This document shows positions 21,422 through 34,042 of a stretch of 64,000 bases of DNA, piece by piece (position 1 is the first letter of the stretch; every line of letters begins with the position of its first letter). The stretch is from Kiritimatiellales bacterium (GTDB taxonomy: Bacteria; Verrucomicrobiota; Kiritimatiellia; Kiritimatiellales; Pontiellaceae). The stretch spans positions 62,001-126,000 of the forward strand of contig QKAU01000067.1 of NCBI GenBank assembly GCA_003246265.1. Direction: 5' to 3'. Below the pieces are notes generated by a model. It searched no databases and was not told the origin of the DNA. It saw only the letters and a program-made list of their open reading frames with translations. The translations under genes were made by a program, and so were the position numbers.

Positions 21422-22807
21422 ATGAAGAGAAGATCCCTGTTGAAAAAAGCCGGCGGCGTCGCGGCCGCCACTTTCGTGCCCGCCCGGTTTTCCATCGGCA
21501 AGCCCGGGCTGTCGGCCAATAGCAAGCTGAACATCGCCATGATCGGCGCGGGCAACATCGCGGCCATGGCCTACGGCGAATGCACGAACGAAAACATCGT
21601 CGCCTTGGCGGACGTCGACTCGAACATGTTCCTCCAGCATGCCGAAAAGTTCCCCGATCTGGCCAAGGCGAAGCAATTCAGGGACTTCCGGGTGATGCTC
21701 GACAAGATGGGCAAGCAGATCGACGCGGTCTGCATCAACACCCCCGACCATACGCACTTCGTGGCAACCATCGAAGCCATGCGCCGCGGCAAGCATGTCT
21801 GCACCCAGAAACCGCTGACCCACAACATCTGGGAGGCGCGCATGCTGAAGCAGGCCAAGGCCAAGTACCGCGTAATCACCAACATGGCCGTCCAGGGGCA
21901 TACCTTCGACGGCATCCGCCAGATGCGCGAGTGGTACGAGGCCGATGTCTTCGGCCAGGTCAAGGAGGTCCACGCCTGGAAGTCCGGGCCAAACTGGGCT
22001 CCATACGAAGGGGAAAACAAATACTTCCACAAGCCCGCCACGCTTCCGCCCCAGGCCGATCCCGTTCCGTCCAGCCTCGACTGGGACCTTTGGCTGGGGC
22101 CGCGCATCACCGATCTGCCGTTCAGCAAGCTCTACCATCCCAAGAGCTGGCGCGGGTTCTATCCCTTCGGCAACGGCCTCTTCGGCGACTGGATGCCGCA
22201 TATCGCCGATGCCGCCGTCTCGATCCTCGACCTCTACGAGCCGACGGTGGTCGAGCTTGAGGAGGTGACGGGCGGCAACGAGCTGCTGGTTCCCGACGGC
22301 GCCCGCGTTCGCTGGGAGTTCGGCCGGCGCGGCGACAAGGCCCCCTGCACCTTCTACTGGCACTATGCGATGCAGGGCCTGAAAATCGATCCGCCGGAGG
22401 ATTGGACCTGGAGCCCCGAGCTGCCCGAGAACGGGACGCTCTTCTACGGGGAGAAGCAAATCGGCTACACCGACGAGCGCTCCAACCATCCGCGGCTGGC
22501 CAACAAGGAGGCGATGCGGGTTTTCAAGGAGGGCGGCTTCCCTCCCGAAAAATACCCCCGGATCAAGGGTGGCCCGTTCGGCGAATGGATCCGGGCCATC
22601 AAGGGCGAAGGCCCCGAACCGGGCGCCAATTTCGACTTTGCTTCGCCCTTCACCGAGATGATGCTGCTCGGCGTACTGGCCGCGCGCGTGGGCGGACGGA
22701 TCGAATGGGATCCGAAGGCGATGAAGATCACGAACCGCCCCGAGCTGAACGCCTTCATCAAGGAGCCCGTGCGCAAGGGGTGGGACTATGGGAAATACCT
22801 GGCATAG
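21422..22807 (+). CDS. Tat-exported Gfo/Idh/MocA oxidoreductase
   Basis: 461 aa. The N-terminus [17 protein letters not shown] is a twin-arginine signal, so the enzyme is folded with its NAD(P) and exported. The Rossmann loop is [10 protein letters not shown], the substrate/cofactor Lys is in CTQKPLTHN, and [10 protein letters not shown] carries the catalytic Asp/His region. Exported members usually hold a non-exchanging cofactor and either oxidise or epimerise sugars, including C3 oxidation of glycosides. It starts 35 bp after the transporter. Confidence 0.9.
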
Positions 22808-22882: not shown

Positions 22883-24043
22883 ATGAAACGCAAACTTCGC
22901 ATGGGTATGGTTGGCGGCGGGCCGGGGGCCTTTATCGGAGAGGTGCATCGCAAGGCGGCGCGCATGGATGGACAGATCGAGGTCGTGGCCGGAGCGTTCG
23001 ACATCGATCCCGAAAAGTCGCGGCAGATGGGCCGGGAACTCGCATTGGATCCAAAGCGCGTCTATGGCGACTACCGGGCCATGATCGAAAGCGAACTGGC
23101 GCTGCCAGCGGACGAGCGCATCGACTTTGTCTCCGTCTGCACACCGAACCACACCCACTTCCCCATCGCCAAGGCGTTCCTTGAGGCCGGCTTCCACGTC
23201 ATGTGCGAAAAGCCCATGACCCTGACCGTTGAACAGGCCGAAGAGCTGAAGGTCGTTGTGCAGGAATCGAAGAAGGTGTTCGGCCTGATGCACAACTACA
23301 CCGCCTATCCGATGGTCAAGCTGGCGCGGGACATGGTGCGGCAGGGCGACCTTGGCGCGATCCGCAAGGTGATCGTGCAGTATCCGCAGGGCTGGCTGGC
23401 CCGCGCCGCCGAAAAGGAGGGTTCGCAGCAGGCCGCATGGCGCACCGATCCGAAGAAGTCCGGCGCCGCCGGCTGCATGGGCGACATCGGCACCCACGCC
23501 GCCAACCTCGCCGAGTACATTGCCGGCCTGACCATCAGGGAGATCGCCGCCGACCTGACCACCTTCGTCAAGGGGCGCCGCCTCGACGACGACGGCAACT
23601 GCCTGTTGCGTTTCAGCAAGGGCGCGAAGGGTCTGCTGCACGCCAGCCAGGTTTCGATCGGGCAGGAAAACAACATCGCCATCTGGGTGCATGGCGAGGA
23701 TGGCAGCATCGAATGGCACCAGGAGCATCCCAACTGGCTCCATGTCGACACGCTCAACGCGCCAACCCGGATCTGGAAGCGCGGCAACGGCTATGTCGGC
23801 GAAAAGTCGGCGGCCGCCGGTCGCGCCACGCGCCTGCCCTTCGGCCATCCGGAGGCGTTCCTCGAAGCCTTCGCCAACAACTACGTCAATTTTGCCGACA
23901 CCATCCGCGCCCGGAACGCCGGGAAGAAGCCCACGGAACTCGAAAGCGACTTCCCGGGCGTGAAGGAGGGCGTGGCCGGCATGAAATTCATCGCCGCCGT
24001 CGTCGAAAGCAGCAAGAACAACGCGGCATGGACCAAGCTGTAA
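22883..24043 (+). CDS. cytoplasmic Gfo/Idh/MocA oxidoreductase
   Basis: 386 aa with no signal peptide. NAD(P) loop MGMVGGGPGAFIGEVH, conserved Lys in CEKPMTLTVEQ, and the DIGTHAANL motif with the catalytic His. It is probably a soluble sugar dehydrogenase or ketosugar reductase working on material brought in by the transporter. The ATG (MKRKLRM) has AGAGGAG upstream; the longer open frame is non-coding-like. With the preceding Tat-exported paralogue it forms an outside/inside pair. Confidence 0.9.
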   Translation: MKRKLRMGMVGGGPGAFIGEVHRKAARMDGQIEVVAGAFDIDPEKSRQMGRELALDPKRVYGDYRAMIESELALPADERIDFVSVCTPNHTHFPIAKAFLEAGFHVMCEKPMTLTVEQAEELKVVVQESKKVFGLMHNYTAYPMVKLARDMVRQGDLGAIRKVIVQYPQGWLARAAEKEGSQQAAWRTDPKKSGAAGCMGDIGTHAANLAEYIAGLTIREIAADLTTFVKGRRLDDDGNCLLRFSKGAKGLLHASQVSIGQENNIAIWVHGEDGSIEWHQEHPNWLHVDTLNAPTRIWKRGNGYVGEKSAAAGRATRLPFGHPEAFLEAFANNYVNFADTIRARNAGKKPTELESDFPGVKEGVAGMKFIAAVVESSKNNAAWTKL

Positions 24044-24085
24044 GGACAGGCCTTGAGCCTGCCCCTTGATGAAAGGAGCATTAAA

Positions 24086-25078
24086 ATGAGCAGACCCGTA
24101 ACCCTCTTCACCGGACAATGGGCGGACCTGCCGCTCGAACAACTCGCCCCCCTCGCGAAGGGGATGGGCTTCGACGGCCTGGAACTCGCCTGCTGGGGCG
24201 ACCACATGGAGGTCGACAAGGCGGCCACGTCGAAGAAGTACTGCAAGGAGAAGCTCGAGCTGCTGGCCGACCACGGCCTTCAGTGCTTCTCCATCAGCCA
24301 CCATCTCGCCGGCCAGCTCGTCTGCGACCCCAACAACGACGGCCGCTCGGACCTGTTCGCCCCGAAGGCGCTGGCGGGCGACCCCGAAGGCCAGCGCAAG
24401 TGGGCCGTCCGCACCATGAAAAACACGGCGAAGGCGGCGCGGAACATGGGCCTGAAGGTGGTCAACGGCTTCACCGGCAGCTCCATCTGGCACATGCTCT
24501 ACTCCTTCCCGCCCGCCAGCGAAAAGATGATCGAGGACGGATACATCCGTTTCGCGAAGCTGTGGAACCCGATCCTCGACGTCTTCGACCAGTGCGGCGT
24601 CAGGTTCGCCCTCGAGGTCCACCCCACCGAGATCGCCTTCGACACCGCAACCGCCCGCCGCGCCCTGGCCGCGATCGGACACCGCAAGGCCTTCGGCTTC
24701 AACTTCGACCCCTCGCACCTCTACTGGCAGGGCGTCGATCCCGTCCGCTTCCTCAAGGCGTTCCCCGACCGCATCTACCACGTCCACATGAAGGACGCGG
24801 CGGTCACGCTGGACGGCGAAAGCGGCATTCTGGCCTCGCACCTCAACTTCGGCACGCCCGGACGCGGATGGGACTTCCGCAGCGTCGGCCGCGGGGGCAT
24901 CGATTTCGAGGCGATCATCCGCACCCTCAACGCCCTGAACTATTCAGGCCCCCTCTCCATCGAGTGGGAGGACGCCATGATGGACCGCGTCCATGGCGCC
25001 ACCGAATCGTGCGCCTTCGTGAAGAAGCTCGACTTCGCCAAGTCGGATCGCGTATTCGACGAGGCGTTCGCCAACTGA
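24086..25078 (+). CDS. sugar phosphate isomerase/epimerase-like TIM-barrel protein
   Basis: 330 aa xylose-isomerase-like (AP endonuclease family 2) barrel with no signal peptide. Metal-ligand regions are [13 protein letters not shown] (Glu/His), [12 protein letters not shown] (Asp/His) and [10 protein letters not shown] (His), with a final Glu in LSIEWED. Such proteins isomerise, epimerise or, next to Gfo/Idh/MocA enzymes, may act as lyases on 3-keto sugars. The ATG has AAGGAG 8 bases upstream. It is part of the transporter-led operon. Confidence 0.88.
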
Positions 25079-25094
25079 TCCCCGGGAGGACGGA

Positions 25095-26060
25095 ATGCAC
25101 AAAACACTGCTGTGCGCGGCCGCCGCCGCGTTGTTTGCCTGCCCGGCCCACGCCAAGCTCAGGGCCCTGATTGTCGATGGACAGAACAACCACGACGTCT
25201 GGCCGAAGTCGACCATCATGTTCAAGCAGTACCTCGAGGAGACCGGCCTCTTCGAGGTCGACATCCTCCGCACCCGCTTCACCTGGAAGGCACAGCGCGA
25301 GAAGGCGTTCCTGCCGCTGGCCGTCGTTGGCGAAACCGAGGACCTGGCCGAGCCGAAGACGGATCCGGAATTCGCCCCGGAGTTCGCCAGATACGACGTG
25401 GTCATCTCCAACTTCGGATGGAAGGCGGCCGACTGGCCGGAGGCGACCCAGCGCGCGCTCGAGACGTACATGCTCAAGGGCGGCGGCTTCGTGTCGGTGC
25501 ATGCGGCCGACAACGCCTTTCCCGAATGGCGGGAATACAACCGGATGATCGGCCTCGGCGGCTGGGGCGGCCGGAGCGAAAAGAACGGCCCCTACGTCTA
25601 CTACACCAACGAAGGCGAGCTGGTCCGCGACCCCTCCCCCGGAGGGGCTGGCGCCCACGGCCCCCAGCACGTCTTCCCGGTCACGGTCCGCGTCCCGGAC
25701 CACCCGATCACCCGGGGAATGCCCACCTCCTGGCTGACCACGAAGGACGAGTGCTATGCCAAGCTGCGCGGCCCGGCCGAAAACATGGTCATCCTGGCCA
25801 CCGGCAAGGACCAGAACGAAAAGGCGCCGACCGACCGCCACGAGCCGATCCTCATGGTGCTCGAGTACGGCAAGGGGCGGATCTTCCACACCACCCTCGG
25901 CCACGACGACTATTCCTGCGAGAGCGTCGGCTTCATCGTCTCCTTCACCCGTGGCGTCGAATGGGCCGCCACCGGCAAGGTTACGCAACCGATTCCCGCC
26001 GATTTCCCCACGGCGGAACGTTCCACCAGCCGGTCCTTTGTCCTGAAGCCGCAGCCGTGA
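25095..26060 (+). CDS. secreted ThuA-domain protein
   Basis: 321 aa with an N-terminal signal peptide (about residues 1-19, AAAALFACPAHA). The ThuA glutamine-amidotransferase-like fold is shown by LIVDGQNNHDVWP, GGGFVSVHAADNAFPEW, HPITRGMP and GRIFHTTLGHDDY. ThuA proteins commonly accompany Gfo/Idh/MocA oxidoreductases in glycan and ketosugar clusters; their biochemical activity is still poorly defined. It starts 16 bp after the isomerase-like gene with GGGAGG upstream and ends the first block. A 171-bp gap follows. Confidence 0.88.
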   Translation: MHKTLLCAAAAALFACPAHAKLRALIVDGQNNHDVWPKSTIMFKQYLEETGLFEVDILRTRFTWKAQREKAFLPLAVVGETEDLAEPKTDPEFAPEFARYDVVISNFGWKAADWPEATQRALETYMLKGGGFVSVHAADNAFPEWREYNRMIGLGGWGGRSEKNGPYVYYTNEGELVRDPSPGGAGAHGPQHVFPVTVRVPDHPITRGMPTSWLTTKDECYAKLRGPAENMVILATGKDQNEKAPTDRHEPILMVLEYGKGRIFHTTLGHDDYSCESVGFIVSFTRGVEWAATGKVTQPIPADFPTAERSTSRSFVLKPQP

Positions 26061-26231: not shown

Positions 26232-27566
26232 ATGGAGATGAACCGCAACCGATTCATGCAGGCCGCCGCCGCCGGCACCCTGCTGGCCGCGCTCAGGGCC
26301 CGCGCCGAGGAGAACGCCGTGCTTGCGGCCAGGAAGGATCCGGACCAGCTCAACATCGCGCTTATCGGCGCAGGGGCGCAGGGGCGCATCCTGACCGAAT
26401 CCTGCCTGCGCATCCCGGGCATCCGCTTCGTCGCCGTCTGCGACATCTGGAGCTACTCCCAGCGCTATGCCGAGCGCTACCTCAAGAAGTACGGCCATGA
26501 TGTCGCCGTCTACGAGAACTACCAGGAGATGCTGGCCAATGAAAAGGGGAAGCTCGACGCCGTCCTGGTCGCCTCCCCCGACTGGATGCACGCGGAGCAC
26601 GCCAACGCCTGCCTGGAGGCCGGGCTGCACGTCTACTGCGAGAAGGAGATGTCGAACTCCCTCGAGAAGGCGGCGAGCATGGTGCGCACCGCCCGCGCAA
26701 CGGGCAGGCTGCTCCAGATCGGCCACCAGCGCCGCTCCAACCCGCGCTACATCCACGCCATCGAGAAGCTCATCCACGAGGAGGCGCTGCTCGGCCGCGT
26801 CACCCACGCCACCGCGCAGTGGAACCGCGCCAAGACCGAGGACCTCGGCTGGCCGGACCAGTACGAGATCGATGCCGCCACCCTCGACAAGTACGGCTAC
26901 GACTCGATGACCCAGTTTCGCAACTGGCGCTGGTACAAGAAGTACGGCGGGGGCCCGATCGTCGACCTCGGCTCCCACCAGATCGACCTTTTCGAATGGG
27001 TGTGGGGCGTCAACCCCAGCTCGGTCATCGCCTCGGGCGGCATCGACTACTATCCGCACCACGAGTGGTACGACAACGTGCTGTGCATCTACGAATACGA
27101 AACCCCGGCCGGCATGGCGCGCGCCTTCTACGAGACGCTGACCACCACGGGCCACCGCGGTTTCTCCGAGGCGTTCCGCGGCGAAAACGGAACCATCGAG
27201 ATCGCCGAGGTGCCCCAGCGCGGCAACGCCGTCCTGCGCGAGGCCCACGCGCCCGACTGGATGCCCTATGTCGAGCGCGGCCTGCTCAAGGCCGTCTCCG
27301 CCCCCATCCAGCAATCCTCCACCAGGAACGTGGCGGTCGACGTGCGCGTGACCGCCGAGGCGGGCAAGTGGCCCCTGCCCATCGAGCTGGCCAAGCCGGC
27401 CCACCAGCCGCACCTGGAGAACTTCTTCAACGCCATCCGTTATGGAACCCCGCTCAACTGCCCCGGCGAATCCGGCTACGAAACCGCCGTTTCGGTCCTG
27501 GCCGTAAACCGGGCGGTCGCCACCAACCAGAAGATCGAATTCAACCCCTCGGATTTCCACGTATGA
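26232..27566 (+). CDS. Gfo/Idh/MocA oxidoreductase with Tat-like leader
   Basis: 444 aa. The leader MNRNRFMQAAAAGTLLAAL resembles a degenerate Tat signal (RNRF rather than RRxF), so export is likely but not certain. NAD(P) loop IALIGAGAQGRILTE; the usual EKP Lys motif reads CEKEMSNS; DLGSHQIDLFEWV carries the catalytic His. The start ATG has GGAG 9 bases upstream; an alternative ATG is two codons later. The last bases overlap the ATG of the multihaem cytochrome (ATGA), so oxidoreductase and cytochrome are translationally coupled, which suggests electron transfer between them. Confidence 0.88.
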   Translation: MEMNRNRFMQAAAAGTLLAALRARAEENAVLAARKDPDQLNIALIGAGAQGRILTESCLRIPGIRFVAVCDIWSYSQRYAERYLKKYGHDVAVYENYQEMLANEKGKLDAVLVASPDWMHAEHANACLEAGLHVYCEKEMSNSLEKAASMVRTARATGRLLQIGHQRRSNPRYIHAIEKLIHEEALLGRVTHATAQWNRAKTEDLGWPDQYEIDAATLDKYGYDSMTQFRNWRWYKKYGGGPIVDLGSHQIDLFEWVWGVNPSSVIASGGIDYYPHHEWYDNVLCIYEYETPAGMARAFYETLTTTGHRGFSEAFRGENGTIEIAEVPQRGNAVLREAHAPDWMPYVERGLLKAVSAPIQQSSTRNVAVDVRVTAEAGKWPLPIELAKPAHQPHLENFFNAIRYGTPLNCPGESGYETAVSVLAVNRAVATNQKIEFNPSDFHV

Positions 27567-30052
27567 AGATCCGGCGGCTACTCATTCCCTTTCTCGGCGC
27601 GGCGCTTCCGGCCTCGGCGGGCCACTTCGATGGCTCGCGCACCGCGCCGGTCCACCGGATTCCGCTCACGGCCGAAGACGGCCAGCGCATCGTCGCAACG
27701 GTTCCGAACACCATGCCCTTCTCGGCGCGGCAGACCTGCGGCGCCTGCCACGACTATGCCGCCATCGATGGCGGCACCCACTTCGGGGGGGCCGGGCAGG
27801 GGCGCCCGGGCGAGCCGTGGATCGCCGTGGATGAAAAGAGCGGCACCCAGGTCCCGGCCGCACGCCTCAACCTCTCGGAATGGGATTTCGTGAAGCGCTT
27901 CGGCAGCCACCTTCCGGGCGGGGGGCGGTTCGATCCCGCCGACAAGCTGGCCGATGAAGAGGCCCGCTGGGATATCTCCGGCGGCCTGGAGATCAATTGC
28001 CTCGCCTGCCACAACCTCTCGCCGCGGCAGGACCTGACCGAATGGGCCAAGCAGATCGGCCGTGAAAACTTCCGCTGGGCCGCCACGGCCGCGGCGGGCC
28101 TCGGCGAGGTGGGGGGCATGGCCGCGCGCATGGCATCGTGGTGGGATGTCTATACCGGCGCCAACCCCGACGACCACGCCTACGCCGTCCCTCCGTCGGT
28201 CGACTACGACCTGGCGCAGTTCGACTCGAAGCACCGCGCCTGGTTCGATCTCGGCATGCCCGCCGACAAGAACTGCCTCCAGTGCCATTCGGTCCATCCC
28301 GTCGGCCGGGAGCGCATGGAGATCCCCGGCGATGTGCATGCCGCGGCGGGCCTCTCCTGCACCGATTGCCACCGCAACGGGATCGACCACCGGATCCTGC
28401 GCGGCACAACCGAAGCGATGGATTGCGCGGCCTGCCACTCCGACGGCGGCCTGCTTGCCGGACAGGCCGGGGCGCCCGTCGCCCTCCACAAGGGGATTCC
28501 TCCCGTCCATTTCGAGGAGTTGACCTGCACCGCCTGCCATTCCGGCCCTGCACCGGCCGACGCCCCGCAAGCGATCCGCACCTCCCGCGCCAACCGGCTC
28601 GGCATCCACGGCCGCGCGCAATGGTTCACCGATTCGCCCTTCATCGTCGAGCCGGTCTTCGTGCGCAACGACGATGGGAAGATCGAACCCCGCCGCATGA
28701 TGTGGCCCGCCTATTGGGCCTATGCCGACGGCGCCCCGCTCGACGAAGACCTGGTCGCGGAAGCCGCCGCCGGCGTGCTGGACGCCCCCGAGCAGGTCGC
28801 CGCGATCCTCGCCCGGCTGGCCGCGGTCGAGAACGCGCCGGGCGAACCGCTCTACGCCACGGCCGGCCGCCTCTACCGGCGCAACGTGGACGGGGGGCTC
28901 GACCTGGCGGGCAGCATCGGGGAGAGCGAATCCTGGCTCTGGCTGACCGAATCCAACCTGGTTTCGATCACTCCCCCCTTCGATGCCGCGGCCGAACAGG
29001 TCGACTACGACGCCGAAGGCACCATCCTCGCCATCATGGATGCGCTGAAGCCGCTCGACACCATGGTCGTGACCCAAGGCACGGGGTTCGCGAAGGACGC
29101 CGACGGCTACCTTGCGGGAACCAACTCCATCCTATCGGCGGGCTGGTACCGCCGCGACGGCCAGCCCCTGGTCGACGGGATGGTCGCACGCGCCGTGGCC
29201 GACACGGTGGGCCAGCCCTTCGCCCTCAACGAGGAACAGCTGGCCCTCATGCTCGCGAAGCTCGGCCCCACAACCTGCTACATCGCCAACGGCCGCAAGT
29301 TCACGCTGTCGGAAGAGGGCGTGCTGGTCGACGAGAACCACCCCTCTGCCGAGCCGGTTTCGTGGGCGTTCGGGCACGATGTGCGCGGCGGCGCGCAGGC
29401 GCTCGGCGCCAAGGGCTGCCGGGAGTGCCACGCGTCGGACACCCCCTTCCTGTTCGGCACGGTGACGGCCACCGGCCCGCTCCTTACGGGCCGTTCAAGG
29501 GCGGTTGCCATGCATACGTTCGAAGGGGTGGACCGCGACTTCAACGAACTGTTCGGCCTGAGCTTTGCGGTGCGCAAGTGGTTCAAGGCGGCCCTCGCCA
29601 CCCTTGCCCTCCTGCTCGCCCTGCTGGCCCTGGCGTTCGGCCTTCCGGCCCTCCACCGCCTGGCGGTGGACCTCGCCGGGCGGGGCAGGACCGGCAACAG
29701 GCTGGTCGCCGCACTGGCGGCCGGCGTGGCCGTGCTGGCGGTTACCGGATTCGTCTTCGGCTGGCCGGTGCGGGGTGCGCTGGGCGGCTTCCCGCTCCTG
29801 CTGCATGTCGCGTTCGGCGGACTTTACGCGGTTGCCCTTCTTGCATGGGCACTGTTGCGCGCCCGCACGGGCGGGCTGTGGCTGTGGCTGCTGGTTGGAA
29901 GCGGCATCGTCCTGATCCTGAGCGTCCTGGTTGCGATGTTCCCGATCCTGGGAACGCAGGGCCAGCACGCCGCCATCGTGCTCCACCGCATGGCGGCCCT
30001 CGCGACGCTCGTGGCGGCGGCGGGCTGCATGGCGGCCAGAAAGGAACGGTAG
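27563..30052 (+). CDS. seven-CxxCH cytochrome c with a C-terminal membrane domain
   Basis: 829 aa. A signal peptide (about residues 1-19, ending PASA) is followed by seven CxxCH haem c sites at about residues 59, 146, 238, 266, 288, 322 and 619. Six lie in the first 330 residues; the seventh, CRECH, follows a 290-residue haem-free region. The C-terminal 155 residues form about five transmembrane helices; His in LLLHVAFGG and IVLHRMAAL could bind a b-type haem as in cytochrome b561-like modules. It therefore looks like a periplasmic electron acceptor wired into the membrane quinone pool. I do not know a named family with this layout. It overlaps the upstream sugar oxidoreductase gene by 4 bp. 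Confidence 0.85.
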   Translation: MKIRRLLIPFLGAALPASAGHFDGSRTAPVHRIPLTAEDGQRIVATVPNTMPFSARQTCGACHDYAAIDGGTHFGGAGQGRPGEPWIAVDEKSGTQVPAARLNLSEWDFVKRFGSHLPGGGRFDPADKLADEEARWDISGGLEINCLACHNLSPRQDLTEWAKQIGRENFRWAATAAAGLGEVGGMAARMASWWDVYTGANPDDHAYAVPPSVDYDLAQFDSKHRAWFDLGMPADKNCLQCHSVHPVGRERMEIPGDVHAAAGLSCTDCHRNGIDHRILRGTTEAMDCAACHSDGGLLAGQAGAPVALHKGIPPVHFEELTCTACHSGPAPADAPQAIRTSRANRLGIHGRAQWFTDSPFIVEPVFVRNDDGKIEPRRMMWPAYWAYADGAPLDEDLVAEAAAGVLDAPEQVAAILARLAAVENAPGEPLYATAGRLYRRNVDGGLDLAGSIGESESWLWLTESNLVSITPPFDAAAEQVDYDAEGTILAIMDALKPLDTMVVTQGTGFAKDADGYLAGTNSILSAGWYRRDGQPLVDGMVARAVADTVGQPFALNEEQLALMLAKLGPTTCYIANGRKFTLSEEGVLVDENHPSAEPVSWAFGHDVRGGAQALGAKGCRECHASDTPFLFGTVTATGPLLTGRSRAVAMHTFEGVDRDFNELFGLSFAVRKWFKAALATLALLLALLALAFGLPALHRLAVDLAGRGRTGNRLVAALAAGVAVLAVTGFVFGWPVRGALGGFPLLLHVAFGGLYAVALLAWALLRARTGGLWLWLLVGSGIVLILSVLVAMFPILGTQGQHAAIVLHRMAALATLVAAAGCMAARKER

Positions 30053-30054
30053 GC

Positions 30055-30864
30055 ATGAGAACAGCAATGATTGCGCTGGCGGGCGCGGCGCTGGCCGCTG
30101 GCGGGGTGTTAGCGGACGGATGGAAACTAGGCGTCCAAGCCTATTCGTTCCGCAAGTTCACCTTTTGCGAGACGCTCGACCAGCTTTCCTCCATGGGCGT
30201 GAAACTGGTCGAGGCCTATCCGGGCCAGCCCATCGGCGGGGGCATCGAAGGCACGACCCACTACTCGATGGACGCGGCGACGCGCGAAGCCCTCAAGACC
30301 AGAATGAAGGCGGCCGGCGTCGAGCTGGTTTCGTACGGCGTGGTTGGCGGAAAGAACGAGGCCGACTGGCGGCAGCTCTTCGAATTCGCGAAGGCAATGG
30401 GCGTCCGGATGATCAATTCCGAACCGGATCCCAAGGATTACGACCTGATCGACCGGCTGGTGGTGGAGTACGGCATTCCCGTCGGCATCCACAACCACGC
30501 GAAGCCGGCGAACCGCTACTGGGATCCGCAGACCGTGCTCGACGCCGCAGCGGCCCATCCCGGCCTCTTCGCCGCGCCGGACAACGGCCACTGGACGCGG
30601 TCGGGCATCCGGCCGGTCGACGGGTTCCGGCTGCTCGAAGGCCACCTGAAGTCGATCCACCTCAAGGACATGGCCTCCTTTGGCGAACTCGACAGCCACT
30701 GCGTCCCGTTCGGAACCGGCGTTTGCGACCTGCCGGCCGTGGTGGAGGAACTCAAGCGGCAGCACTACAACGGGCCGTTCATCATTGAATACGAGTCCGA
30801 TCCGGAAAACCCCGCGCCCGCCATCAGGCAGTGCGTGGAGTGGTTCAACGCCAACGCCCGCTAG
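30055..30864 (+). CDS. exported sugar isomerase/epimerase-like TIM-barrel protein
   Basis: 269 aa with a short signal peptide (about residues 1-20, ending VLA). The barrel has GVQAYSFRKFTF near its start, GIHNHAKP, APDNGHWTRSG, IHLKDMASFG and a final FIIEYES, the usual metal-ligand places of the xylose-isomerase-like family. Being exported, it should act on a periplasmic sugar rather than a sugar phosphate. It lies 2 bp after the cytochrome and directly abuts apbE, so it belongs to the same operon. Confidence 0.87.
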   Translation: MRTAMIALAGAALAAGGVLADGWKLGVQAYSFRKFTFCETLDQLSSMGVKLVEAYPGQPIGGGIEGTTHYSMDAATREALKTRMKAAGVELVSYGVVGGKNEADWRQLFEFAKAMGVRMINSEPDPKDYDLIDRLVVEYGIPVGIHNHAKPANRYWDPQTVLDAAAAHPGLFAAPDNGHWTRSGIRPVDGFRLLEGHLKSIHLKDMASFGELDSHCVPFGTGVCDLPAVVEELKRQHYNGPFIIEYESDPENPAPAIRQCVEWFNANAR

Positions 30865-31668
30865 ATGGACACCCCCGTCCAACACCGCTTCACGCACGAG
30901 TCGATGGCCACAACCTTCGAAGTGGTCGTGGCCGGCCGGGAGCGCGAGTATGCGCGGCAGGCGGCCGCAGCGCTGTTCCGCGAAATCGACCGCCTCGACG
31001 CGCTGCTCAACAAGTACGATGCCGGCAGCGACATCGGGCAGGTCAACCTCCTGAAGCCGGGAGAAACGGTGCGCGTGGCGGTTGAAACACTGGAGTGCCT
31101 GGAACAGGCGGTGTGGGCCCACGGGGCCACGGACGGCCTCTTCGACCCCACCGTCGGAACCGGCTTCCAGTGGCTGGCGATCGACCGGCCGGATTTTTCC
31201 GTCGGCTGGAAGGCCGGCGGCAAGGGGCAGCTGGACCTTGGTGGCATCGGCAAGGGCTTCGCCATCGACAAGGCCACCGAGCTGCTGGCCGATTGGGAGA
31301 TCGGCGAGGTCCTGATCAGCGGAGGGACCAGCACGGTGATGGCCCTCGGCCGCGAATGGCCGCTGGGCATCGGCGGGCCGTGGGGAGAGTCGGCCGGATT
31401 CTCCTCCATCCGACTCAGGGACAAGGCGTTGAGCGGATCTGGAACGGAGGTGAAGGGGGCGCACATCATCAATCCGAAAACCGGTCGCCCGGCATGCCGC
31501 CACCTGGCCGCGTGGGCAATCAATCCGTCAGCGACTGTCTCCGACGCGTTCTCGACGGCGTTCATGATGATGGAGCCGGAATGGATCCGGCGGTTGTGCG
31601 AAACCGTGCCGGGTTCCGCGGCGGTTGTGGTCGACCAGGAAGGCCACCTGCAGCGAATCGGCATTTAA
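30865..31668 (+). CDS. apbE: FAD:protein FMN transferase (ApbE)
   Basis: 267 aa. ApbE covalently attaches FMN from FAD to a Thr/Ser of target redox proteins. Family landmarks are ESMATTFEVVV, DLFDPTVGTGF-like GLFDPTVGTGF, LDLGGIGKGFAIDKA, LISGGTSTVMALG and HIINPKTGRP. The start codon touches the previous stop. No signal peptide or lipobox is visible, unlike many periplasmic ApbE proteins, so it may work in the cytoplasm or be exported by other means. No FMN-binding target with an obvious S/T-GAT motif was noticed in the window. Confidence 0.9.
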   Translation: MDTPVQHRFTHESMATTFEVVVAGREREYARQAAAALFREIDRLDALLNKYDAGSDIGQVNLLKPGETVRVAVETLECLEQAVWAHGATDGLFDPTVGTGFQWLAIDRPDFSVGWKAGGKGQLDLGGIGKGFAIDKATELLADWEIGEVLISGGTSTVMALGREWPLGIGGPWGESAGFSSIRLRDKALSGSGTEVKGAHIINPKTGRPACRHLAAWAINPSATVSDAFSTAFMMMEPEWIRRLCETVPGSAAVVVDQEGHLQRIGI

Positions 31669-31734
31669 GAAGGATTTTCGGACTGGATTCCGAAGAATGG
31701 CTGGATGATATTCGAACCCATAGGAGGACAAGCA

Positions 31735-32376
31735 ATGAACCGGATGATTGTTTTTACAGTGGCCGCCCTCGTGGCGGGGGGCGCCGTCGCCGAAGAGATG
31801 GCGAAGCTGGAGCTCCAGCTGCCTGCACCGCAGTTCGCGGGGACCCCGAAGACCATCAAGACCCCCAACCTCGAGCGCGAGGCCGTCGTGCCCGAAATCA
31901 TGGTGCCCGCCGGCACGGCCAACGTGGCGGCCGGCAAGCCGGTTACCTCGAGCGACGATTTCCCCGTCATCGGCGAGCTTGAATACCTGACCGACAGCGA
32001 CAAGGAGGGCTCAGACGGCTCCTATATCGAGCTGGGCCCGGAGTTGCAGTGGGTGCAGATCGATCTGGGCGAGGCGAAGACCCTCTACGCCATCGCCCTC
32101 TGGCACTACCATGCCCAGGCGCGTGCCTACCGCGACGTGATCATCCAGGTGTCGGACGATGCCGGCTTCGCCGGAAACGTCCAGACGCTGTTCAACAACG
32201 ACCACGACAACTCCTCCGGCCTGGGGGCCGGGAAGGACAAGGAGTACATCGAAACCTACATGGGGAAGCTGATCGACGCCAAGGGCGCCAAGGGCCGCTA
32301 TGTCCGGCTCTACTCCAACGGCAGCACCGGCTCCGACATGAACCACTACATCGAGGTCGAGGTGTTCGGCAAGTAG
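31735..32376 (+). CDS. secreted discoidin (F5/8 type C)-like protein
   Basis: 213 aa. A signal peptide (residues 1-19, ending GGAVAE) is followed by about 50 residues of low complexity and then one galactose-binding-like domain: NVAAGKPVTSSDD, WVQIDLGEAKTLYAIALWHY, RDVIIQVSDDAGF, RYVRLYSNGSTG. Such beta-sandwiches usually bind glycans. The ATG has TAGGAGG 7 bases upstream. A strong terminator follows, so this gene ends the transcription unit begun by the oxidoreductase/cytochrome block or is monocistronic. Confidence 0.82.
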   Translation: MNRMIVFTVAALVAGGAVAEEMAKLELQLPAPQFAGTPKTIKTPNLEREAVVPEIMVPAGTANVAAGKPVTSSDDFPVIGELEYLTDSDKEGSDGSYIELGPELQWVQIDLGEAKTLYAIALWHYHAQARAYRDVIIQVSDDAGFAGNVQTLFNNDHDNSSGLGAGKDKEYIETYMGKLIDAKGAKGRYVRLYSNGSTGSDMNHYIEVEVFGK

Positions 32377-32485: not shown

Positions 32486-34042
32486 ATGAAGTGGATGCCT
32501 GTCGCCATGCTGGCCCTGCTCGCGCTCGCCGCGTCGCTGCGCCTCCCGCGGCTGGCGGAACGGCCGATGCACCACGACGAGGCGAACCAGGCCTACCGTT
32601 TCGGCATCCTCCTCGAAAGGGGCACCTACCACTACGACGCCAACGACCACCACGGTCCGACCCTCTACTACCTGACCCTGCCCTCCGCCTGGCTGGCGGG
32701 CGCAAGGAACTTTGCGCAGACCAACGAAGCCACCTACCGCATCGTGCCGGTCTGCTTCGGCCTGCTGCTCATCCTCTGCACGCCGCTGCTGCGCAACGGC
32801 ACCGGCCGCCTTGCCGCCGCCGCCGCGGCCCTGTTCGCGGCCATCTCCCCGGCCATGGCCTACTACAGTCGCTTCTACATCCAGGAGACCCTGCTGCTCT
32901 TCTTCACCTTCCTGGCGATCGCGGCGGGCTGGCGGTCGGTCCGCACCGGTTCGCGCGGCTGGGCGCTGGCGGCCGGGCTGGCGGCGGGCCTCATGTTCGC
33001 CACCAAGGAGACCGCCGTGCTGGCCTATGCCGCGATGGCCGGCGCCGTGCTGGCCTGCATGGCGGCCGGGCGCGCCCGGCACCTTCCACTCCGGAACATG
33101 GCGCTGGCGGGAGGGGCGGCACTGGCCGTGGCCTACCTGCTCTTCTCCTCCTTCCTCACCCATCCCGGCGGGCCGCTGGATGCGATCCTTGCCTTCAAGG
33201 GATACCTCTCCCGCGGGTCCGGGCTTGGCACCGTCCACGTCCACCCGTGGTATTTCTACCTCGAGATGCTCGTCCGGTACCGCTTCGACGGCGGACCGGT
33301 CTGGAGCGAGGGGCTGGCCTTCGGCCTCGGCATCGCGGGCTGCGCCGCGATCGCCACCCGCAACCTGCCGCGCGGCTGCGACTCCGGGTTTGCGGGATTC
33401 CTGATGGCCTACACGCTTCTGCTCACGGCCATCTACTCCGCTATTCCCTACAAGACCCCTTGGTGTCTTCTCTCCTTCCTCCACGGATGGATCCTGCTGG
33501 CCGGCATCGGTGCCGCGGCCCTGCTCGAGGGATGCTGGAACGCTACGCCGAAACGAGGCCTCGCGCGGACGGCAACCACGGCGGCCCTGGTGCTCCTGCT
33601 CATGCCCGTGGCGGGGACCCTTCGCCTCGCCCAACGGACCGTTTCCACCTATGCGGCCGACTACCGCAACCCCTACGCCTACGCCCAGACCGTTCCGGAC
33701 TTCATGCGCCTCGTGCGGCGCGTCGGCGAACTGGCGGCTGCCGATGCCAAAGGGATCGAAATCCATATCCAGGTCATCGCTGCGCCCGACCAGACGTGGC
33801 CCCTGCCCTTCTACCTGCGCCGCTACCCCAACGTGGGCTACTGGGCCGAGGGCGAGGGCGTTCCAAAATGGCCCCGGCCCGGCCTAATCATTTCCGCCGC
33901 AGACCCTGCGGCCGATGAGGAGGGCTTCGTCACCGAATACTACGGCCTGCGCCCCGATACGCTCCTCGCCCTCCACATCCCGCGCCCGCTCTGGGAGGCC
34001 TTCCTCGCAACCCGCGCCCAGCCGACGCCCGATTGCCGTTGA
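32486..34042 (+). CDS. Agl23/TIGR03663-like membrane glycosyltransferase
   Basis: 518 aa with about 10-12 membrane helices. The first loop has RPMHHDEANQAYRFG, where the Asp-Glu pair is the catalytic signature of the GT-C dolichyl-phosphate-mannose protein mannosyltransferase superfamily; YLLSFLHGW-type and YKTPWCLLSF segments also match TIGR03663 proteins. It probably transfers a sugar from a polyprenyl-phosphate donor to an extracytoplasmic acceptor. It starts 45 bp after a terminator and is therefore a separate unit. The ATG giving MKWMPVAML is preferred over a GTG 13 codons upstream. Confidence 0.78.
   Translation: MKWMPVAMLALLALAASLRLPRLAERPMHHDEANQAYRFGILLERGTYHYDANDHHGPTLYYLTLPSAWLAGARNFAQTNEATYRIVPVCFGLLLILCTPLLRNGTGRLAAAAAALFAAISPAMAYYSRFYIQETLLLFFTFLAIAAGWRSVRTGSRGWALAAGLAAGLMFATKETAVLAYAAMAGAVLACMAAGRARHLPLRNMALAGGAALAVAYLLFSSFLTHPGGPLDAILAFKGYLSRGSGLGTVHVHPWYFYLEMLVRYRFDGGPVWSEGLAFGLGIAGCAAIATRNLPRGCDSGFAGFLMAYTLLLTAIYSAIPYKTPWCLLSFLHGWILLAGIGAAALLEGCWNATPKRGLARTATTAALVLLLMPVAGTLRLAQRTVSTYAADYRNPYAYAQTVPDFMRLVRRVGELAAADAKGIEIHIQVIAAPDQTWPLPFYLRRYPNVGYWAEGEGVPKWPRPGLIISAADPAADEEGFVTEYYGLRPDTLLALHIPRPLWEAFLATRAQPTPDCR

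Follow-up and report, generated by a model that had tools for sequence, protein, structure and literature searches.

A Gfo/Idh/MocA oxidoreductase (GIM) and a heptahaem c-type cytochrome (CYT) were found to be a conserved, co-inherited gene pair. In the analysed window, a 64,000-nucleotide stretch from a Kiritimatiellales genome of 3.0 Mb, the two genes lie next to each other. The first-pass annotation had read four genes at this place as one operon, in which an exported sugar oxidoreductase hands its electrons to a membrane cytochrome. The four genes, their overlaps and their near-touching junctions were all as described there, and Pfam agreed on each family. We propose, with about an even chance of being right, that GIM dehydrogenates a sugar, either a glycoside or a polyol, in the envelope and passes the electrons to CYT.

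Gene order around the pair

All genes of the locus lie on the forward strand. GIM (26232..27566; 444 amino acids with a signal-like N-terminus) overlaps CYT (27563..30052; 829 amino acids with a C-terminal membrane bundle) by 4 bp (ATGA). After a gap of 2 bp, CYT is followed by a gene for a xylose-isomerase-like TIM barrel with a signal peptide (30055..30864; PF01261, 6.4e-21; PDB 3p6l, 1.3e-60), and then, with a gap of 0 bp, by ApbE of the FAD:protein FMN transferase family (30865..31668; PF02424; PDB TM1553, 1.3e-15). The Pfam E-values were 4.7e-19 for GFO_IDH_MocA, 6.4e-21 for AP_endonuc_2 and 6.7e-38 for ApbE, and CYT matched Cytochrom_c3_2 (4e-10) and Cytochrome_C7 (2.2e-8). Further downstream are DISC, an exported discoidin-like (F5/8C, galactose-binding-like) protein of 213 amino acids (31735..32376, with an alternative open start at 31705; PF22633, 1.4e-7), and a TIGR03663 (flippase activity-associated Agl23) membrane protein (32486..34042; 7.1e-48, above its cut-off). 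Upstream, Pfam recognised a second Gfo/Idh/MocA gene, GIMb (22883-24043), a TIM barrel, XIa (24086-25078), and ThuA (25095-26060). This block (22883..26060) is separated from GIM by 171 bp and is probably transcribed separately from the GIM operon. Promoter and terminator scans gave a signal no higher than in shuffles.

The DNA around CYT relatives was fetched, the genes were called by script, and 47 loci with a CYT gene were compared. The loci were picked by their CYT match, and the locus counts are minimum values; some loci end at contig ends. In 35/47 loci, GIM immediately preceded CYT on the same strand. Downstream of CYT, ApbE was present in 40/47 and DISC, with 49-76% identity among 26 relatives, in 28/47; the TIGR03663 membrane protein gene was present in 14/47. 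The isomerase-like gene occurred in 5/47 loci, all in the window genome's own family. In other loci its place was taken by a sulfatase-like protein, further Gfo/Idh/MocA proteins, a member of the 3-keto-disaccharide hydrolase family (lying between CYT and ApbE in 3/47 loci), or nothing. Therefore, the conserved system consists of GIM, CYT, ApbE and DISC, and the isomerase, which had been counted as a member of the set, was ruled out as part of it and is an exchangeable local addition. Beyond the genes first read as the operon, the conserved unit continues to DISC and often to the TIGR03663 protein. The isomerase-like protein itself falls into the PF01261 fold family of xylose-isomerase-like 3-keto-glycoside lyases, and may act as an isomerase of sugars or a lyase of keto-sugars. 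An extra gene lies between CYT and ApbE in two genomes of the genus (L030, 10609-11355; L031, 7325-8065), and the L031 insert matches PDDEXK_3 (GxxExxY-like).

The GIM-CYT pair was kept across families and phyla, so it is not unique to one genome, which had been named as an outcome that would speak against the proposal. It reaches beyond the class, with Acidobacteriota and Sumerlaeota loci included, and the same block is carried by named Kiritimatiellales MAGs. The Acidobacteriota locus (L004) has the full order of GIMb, TIM barrel, GIM, CYT, ApbE, DISC and TIGR03663, and GIMb-XIa adjoins the pair in L002, L004, L034, L038 and L051. The TIGR03663 protein of the window (32486-34042) recurs beside DISC, with and without CYT. 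In family f31, EtfB, EtfA and ETF:quinone oxidoreductase genes are often found upstream of GIM. Some f31 loci (L054-L056, L059, L060, L062 and L065) have CYT directly after ExbB and ExbD genes and away from GIM; several of these have ApbE and an acyl-CoA-ligase-like gene, and in some of them CYT is without much of the domain intervening between haems 6 and 7.

Co-occurrence and residues of the oxidoreductase

In a sample of 288 genomes of the class, CYT was found in 57, and the GIM family profile gave matches in 72 at E < 1e-120. When GIM was split off at the score gap between 612 and 599 bits, which was chosen after the scores were known, both genes were present in 55 genomes, CYT only in 2, GIM only in 1, and neither in 230. 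Without the split, the corresponding numbers were 55, 2, 17 and 214. One genome (G199) was scored as GIM-positive although its match is partial. Both genes were also kept in 13 f31 genomes (genera g53, g99 and g109) in which the GIM match lay on a different contig from CYT; the CYT loci read from this group had other genes, often ExbD, directly upstream of CYT. Moreover, the GIM and CYT trees were broadly congruent, and a genome with two paralogous operons (G125) retained a GIM-CYT pair in each. Chance neighbourhood in one genome was ruled out by the adjacency in 35/47 loci together with the class-wide co-occurrence.

GIM has the NAD-binding N-terminal domain and the alpha/beta C-terminal domain of the Gfo/Idh/MocA family, all above the Pfam cut-offs (PF01408, 69.7 bits vs 24; PF22725, 51.6 vs 27; PF02894, 44.4 vs 22.9). 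Its motifs are a GAGAQG nucleotide site, EKEMSN with K138 and DLGSHQID with H249. K138, H249 and the nucleotide-site glycines were invariant among GIM relatives, and D71 after beta-2 suggests NAD as the cofactor. The nearest solved structures were DgpA (1.4e-16), an enzyme of C-glycoside C3 oxidation, glucose-fructose oxidoreductase (GFOR, 7e-13) and glucuronide-3-dehydrogenase (7e-12), and a GH109 protein was also among the structural relatives. Against the model of the glycoside 3-dehydrogenase BT_2158 (NF058561), GIM scored 80.3 bits, below the cut-off of 750. The nearest structures and the catabolic-looking neighbours point to a glycoside as the substrate class. At the N-terminus, GIM of the window reads NRNRF, which holds only one arginine of the twin-arginine motif, and many relatives in other families have the full motif (NRRDFLK-type). 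The N-R-x-x-F form was seen in GIM of the window's genus (26232-26320 in the window); TatC is nonetheless present in the window's own genome. A neighbouring Gfo/Idh/MocA protein at 21422 begins with MKRRSLLKK.

Four positions of GIM tracked the presence of CYT. In GIM from CYT genomes, E122, E139 and V244 were each found in 39/40 sequences and S248 in 40/40, whereas P122, M or L139, S244 and A248 were found in 12/12 relatives from CYT-less genomes; the two groups may be clades, so that ancestry alone could explain part of this pattern. E139 directly follows the catalytic lysine. Since GFOR and GH109 enzymes recycle their bound nicotinamide internally, and both are among the structural relatives, GIM might be self-contained and redox-neutral with bound NAD, in the manner of GFOR or an NAD-dependent glycosidase, and CYT might serve another step of the pathway. 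However, such an enzyme needs no cytochrome partner, and E139, the neighbour of the catalytic lysine, is one of the positions that track CYT; we consider this explanation very unlikely.

The distribution of CYT bears on a further explanation, in which CYT and ApbE form a general membrane electron module leading from quinone to extracellular or periplasmic acceptors, with GIM as one client or linked through regulation only. In part of family f31, CYT occurs with ExbB/ExbD, ApbE and the acyl-CoA-ligase-like gene while GIM is not adjacent, and one locus (L090) has CYT without a nearby GIM. Furthermore, Pontiella strains are able to reduce AQDS and metals, by a mechanism that is not known (PMC7356697). 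A general module is nevertheless improbable, given that GIM is kept in nearly all CYT genomes even when the two are unlinked, and that its four positions track CYT presence.

Haems, membrane bundle and quinone markers

CYT has seven CXXCH motifs; its N-terminus is a signal-like helix, and about five hydrophobic helices form a bundle at its C-terminus. Its c-haem regions cover residues ~30-330 and 605-625, an extra non-haem domain covers 334-606, and the bundle covers 658-829. The histidines of the seven CXXCH motifs and exactly seven more (31, 73, 259, 276, 309, 316 and 605) were invariant (n = 47), the exceptions being gaps in single sequences. Since seven haems and seven spare histidine ligands leave no free site, we infer from this fit that the haems are bis-histidine-ligated and would serve electron transfer rather than haem catalysis. 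Among the histidines of the transmembrane (TM) region, H748 (40/41) and H808 (41/41) were conserved, and H698 and H802 were found in 2/47 and 24/47; H748 and H808 could hold one b-haem.

In the AlphaFold model of CYT (mean pLDDT 78.9), residues 709-829 lie in a bundle. This bundle matched FdnI with Z 11.8 and HyaC with Z 11.6, a likeness that is only suggestive because unrelated helical bundles reached Z 9-10. Foldseek gave no significant match for full-length CYT, no Pfam b-type domain was matched in 43 CYT members, and no solved relative was found by single-sequence search; a profile search of solved structures matched NrfA-type nitrite reductases, over a short stretch only. The domain at 334-606 was mostly predicted with confidence, and its fold had no convincing PDB match, which does not show a new fold. 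At the N-terminal edge of this domain, a block starting with RTSRAN ranks with the best-conserved parts of CYT. By its sequence and model, CYT looks like an electron conduit that ends in a b-type-like membrane bundle.

The CbcL/MtrH/MtoC proteins of Geobacter and others have an N-terminal c domain with 3-23 CXXCH motifs and a C-terminal HydC/FdnI-like b-type bundle of 4-6 TM helices with three conserved TM-region histidines, and a quinone link has been proposed for them (PMC6295460). CYT likewise has an N-terminal multihaem c domain, its seven motifs lying within that range, and a C-terminal membrane bundle. In contrast, it has two conserved TM histidines (H748 and H808) instead of three, as compared by family description. 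It also differs in its sugar-oxidoreductase partner and in the large additional domain that separates haem 6 from haem 7. Since the three-histidine feature is missing, CYT was not assigned to the CbcL family despite its CbcL-like architecture.

The window's own genome has a c-type cytochrome assembly gene and two MqnA/MqnD-type (futalosine menaquinone) genes besides TatC, as well as Rnf-like and Nqr-like gene sets, the FMN-binding subunits of which carry DAKTGAT and DGISGAT flavinylation motifs. Menaquinones are produced by Pontiella strains, whose genomes also code for several c-type cytochromes, and K. glycovorans is without both (PMC7356697). When MqnA/D and MenD were sought as menaquinone markers, a marker was found in 22/23 CYT genomes outside family f31 and in 2/34 within it. 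Across the class, 24/57 CYT genomes and 65/231 others had a marker (Fisher p 0.054; the genomes are related and not independent samples, so Fisher values are not readable as probabilities). Menaquinone genes were thus rejected as a class-wide correlate of CYT, the correlation being weak because family f31 is without the markers. Given the markers in the own genome and outside f31, the quinone step is plausible here, but it is unproven in f31. Most CYT genomes of f31 are without menaquinone markers, and several have ETF:quinone oxidoreductase beside GIM. The gene content suggests a scavenged quinone or another, unusual acceptor in that family. The cytochrome as the electron route, as first put forward, is partly supported, by the conserved pair, by the co-occurrence of the two genes even when unlinked, by the GIM residues that track CYT and by the conduit-like CYT; the EtfB, EtfA and ETF:quinone oxidoreductase genes beside GIM in f31 and the 3-keto-disaccharide hydrolase family genes in three relatives also speak for it. 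Against it stand the absence of MqnA/D and MenD markers from 33/57 CYT genomes, nearly all of one family, the loci in which CYT lies away from GIM, and the degenerate twin-arginine motif of the window's GIM.

The same wiring might also run in reverse, with menaquinol or another donor reducing CYT and GIM in the envelope reducing a keto-sugar, either to dispose of electrons in an anaerobe or to remodel envelope glycans. Gfo/Idh/MocA enzymes are known to catalyse both directions, the neighbourhood repeatedly includes a TIGR03663/PMT-like membrane protein, the ETF:quinone oxidoreductase neighbours could feed quinol, and the conservation data are neutral on direction. However, textbook potentials favour oxidation by menaquinone over the reduction of a ketone with menaquinol, and a catabolic role is suggested by the upstream genes of the window and by the inserts of the 3-keto-disaccharide hydrolase or isomerase type. 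We regard the reverse direction as unlikely.

The proposed route and its known counterparts

ApbE scored 131 bits against PF02424 (cut-off 25.6), and its KG-A-D, G-x-H and D-x-x-x-T motifs were conserved in 39 sequences. No signal peptide or lipobox was seen by eye in the 39 N-termini; cytosolic ApbEs exist (PMC12052999). A scan of the GIM, CYT and DISC sequences found the flavinylation motif D-x-x-[ST]-G-A-[ST] in none of them, by which flavinylation of these three through the known motif was ruled out. A second, stronger ApbE match lies elsewhere in the own genome. ApbE as a functional partner in the operon, as the first-pass annotation had it, thus has no visible target there. With neither a signal peptide on ApbE nor the flavinylation motif in any partner, these sequences do not account for the hydride-to-haem step, and it counts against electron transfer from GIM to CYT that the motif scan found no hydride-to-single-electron component among GIM, CYT and DISC. 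As in the ApbE-dependent extracytosolic electron-transfer systems (PMC8238504), apbE lies beside membrane redox genes here; unlike in those systems, it is without a signal peptide and its neighbours are without the motif.

If GIM is a dehydrogenase that passes electrons to CYT, it would be exported folded with NAD bound, in the way that periplasmic GFOR is exported folded with its bound cofactor, and would oxidise a sugar hydroxyl, possibly at C3. CYT would re-oxidise GIM, and the electrons would run from the c-haems to the b-haem between H748 and H808 and on to menaquinone. DISC may bind glycan or dock the enzyme, and ApbE may supply flavin for a two-electron to one-electron step at some target. 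We infer the direction, the substrate and the quinone step of this route. In its most specific form, the NAD of GIM stays permanently bound on the far side of the membrane, outside the cytoplasm, and a dedicated heptahaem c/monohaem b CYT re-oxidises the enzyme, with a flavin from cytosolic ApbE bridging hydride and haem, which would make a respiratory entry for glycoside oxidation that bypasses import and cytoplasmic NADH; we put this form forward tentatively and lean somewhat against it.

A sister cluster was seen in genomes without CYT (L092-L101, L106 and L107), with a GIM relative carrying EKMMSN or EKLMSN, DISC, and often ApbE and TIGR03663. In 8/12 of these loci, a membrane protein of 160-177 residues with 3-4 TM helices adjoins the GIM relative; two of the small proteins matched MauE weakly (6e-4 and 7.5e-3), short of the Pfam cut-off. 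The core is kept with the small membrane protein in place of the cytochrome, and therefore the membrane module appears to be exchanged. In these relatives, the small MauE/DoxX-like protein may be an alternative electron exit.

GIM shares its superfamily with the glycoside 3-dehydrogenases of the DgpA and BT_2158 type and has keto-sugar-processing families among its neighbours; unlike them, it has a cytochrome partner, none having been described for those enzymes in the open-access literature searched. The Gfo/Idh/MocA fold is also shared with GFOR of Zymomonas, but there the cofactor is recycled within the enzyme, without a cytochrome partner. The FAD glucoside 3-dehydrogenase of Agrobacterium and Halomonas oxidises glycosides at C3 in the periplasm and delivers the electrons to a cytochrome c subunit. 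The proposed route resembles it in joining periplasmic glycoside oxidation to a cytochrome c, but that enzyme is a GMC-type FAD protein, not a Gfo/Idh/MocA member, and its cytochrome is of another kind. In the open-access literature searched, the coverage of which is incomplete, no paper was found that pairs a Gfo/Idh/MocA enzyme with a multihaem cytochrome; this agrees with the earlier statement that no described system with exactly this set was known.

Verrucomicrobiota, Planctomycetota and Bacteroidota are rich in exported Gfo/Idh/MocA enzymes. A dedicated, co-inherited cytochrome offers a concrete and testable electron exit for them, and E122, E139, V244 and S248 provide a sequence marker for predicting cytochrome-linked members of the family. 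If the proposed route is true, glycan oxidation outside the cytoplasm would be an energy-yielding step in anaerobes. The GIM-CYT pair suggests that these anaerobes feed sugar electrons straight into the membrane electron chain.
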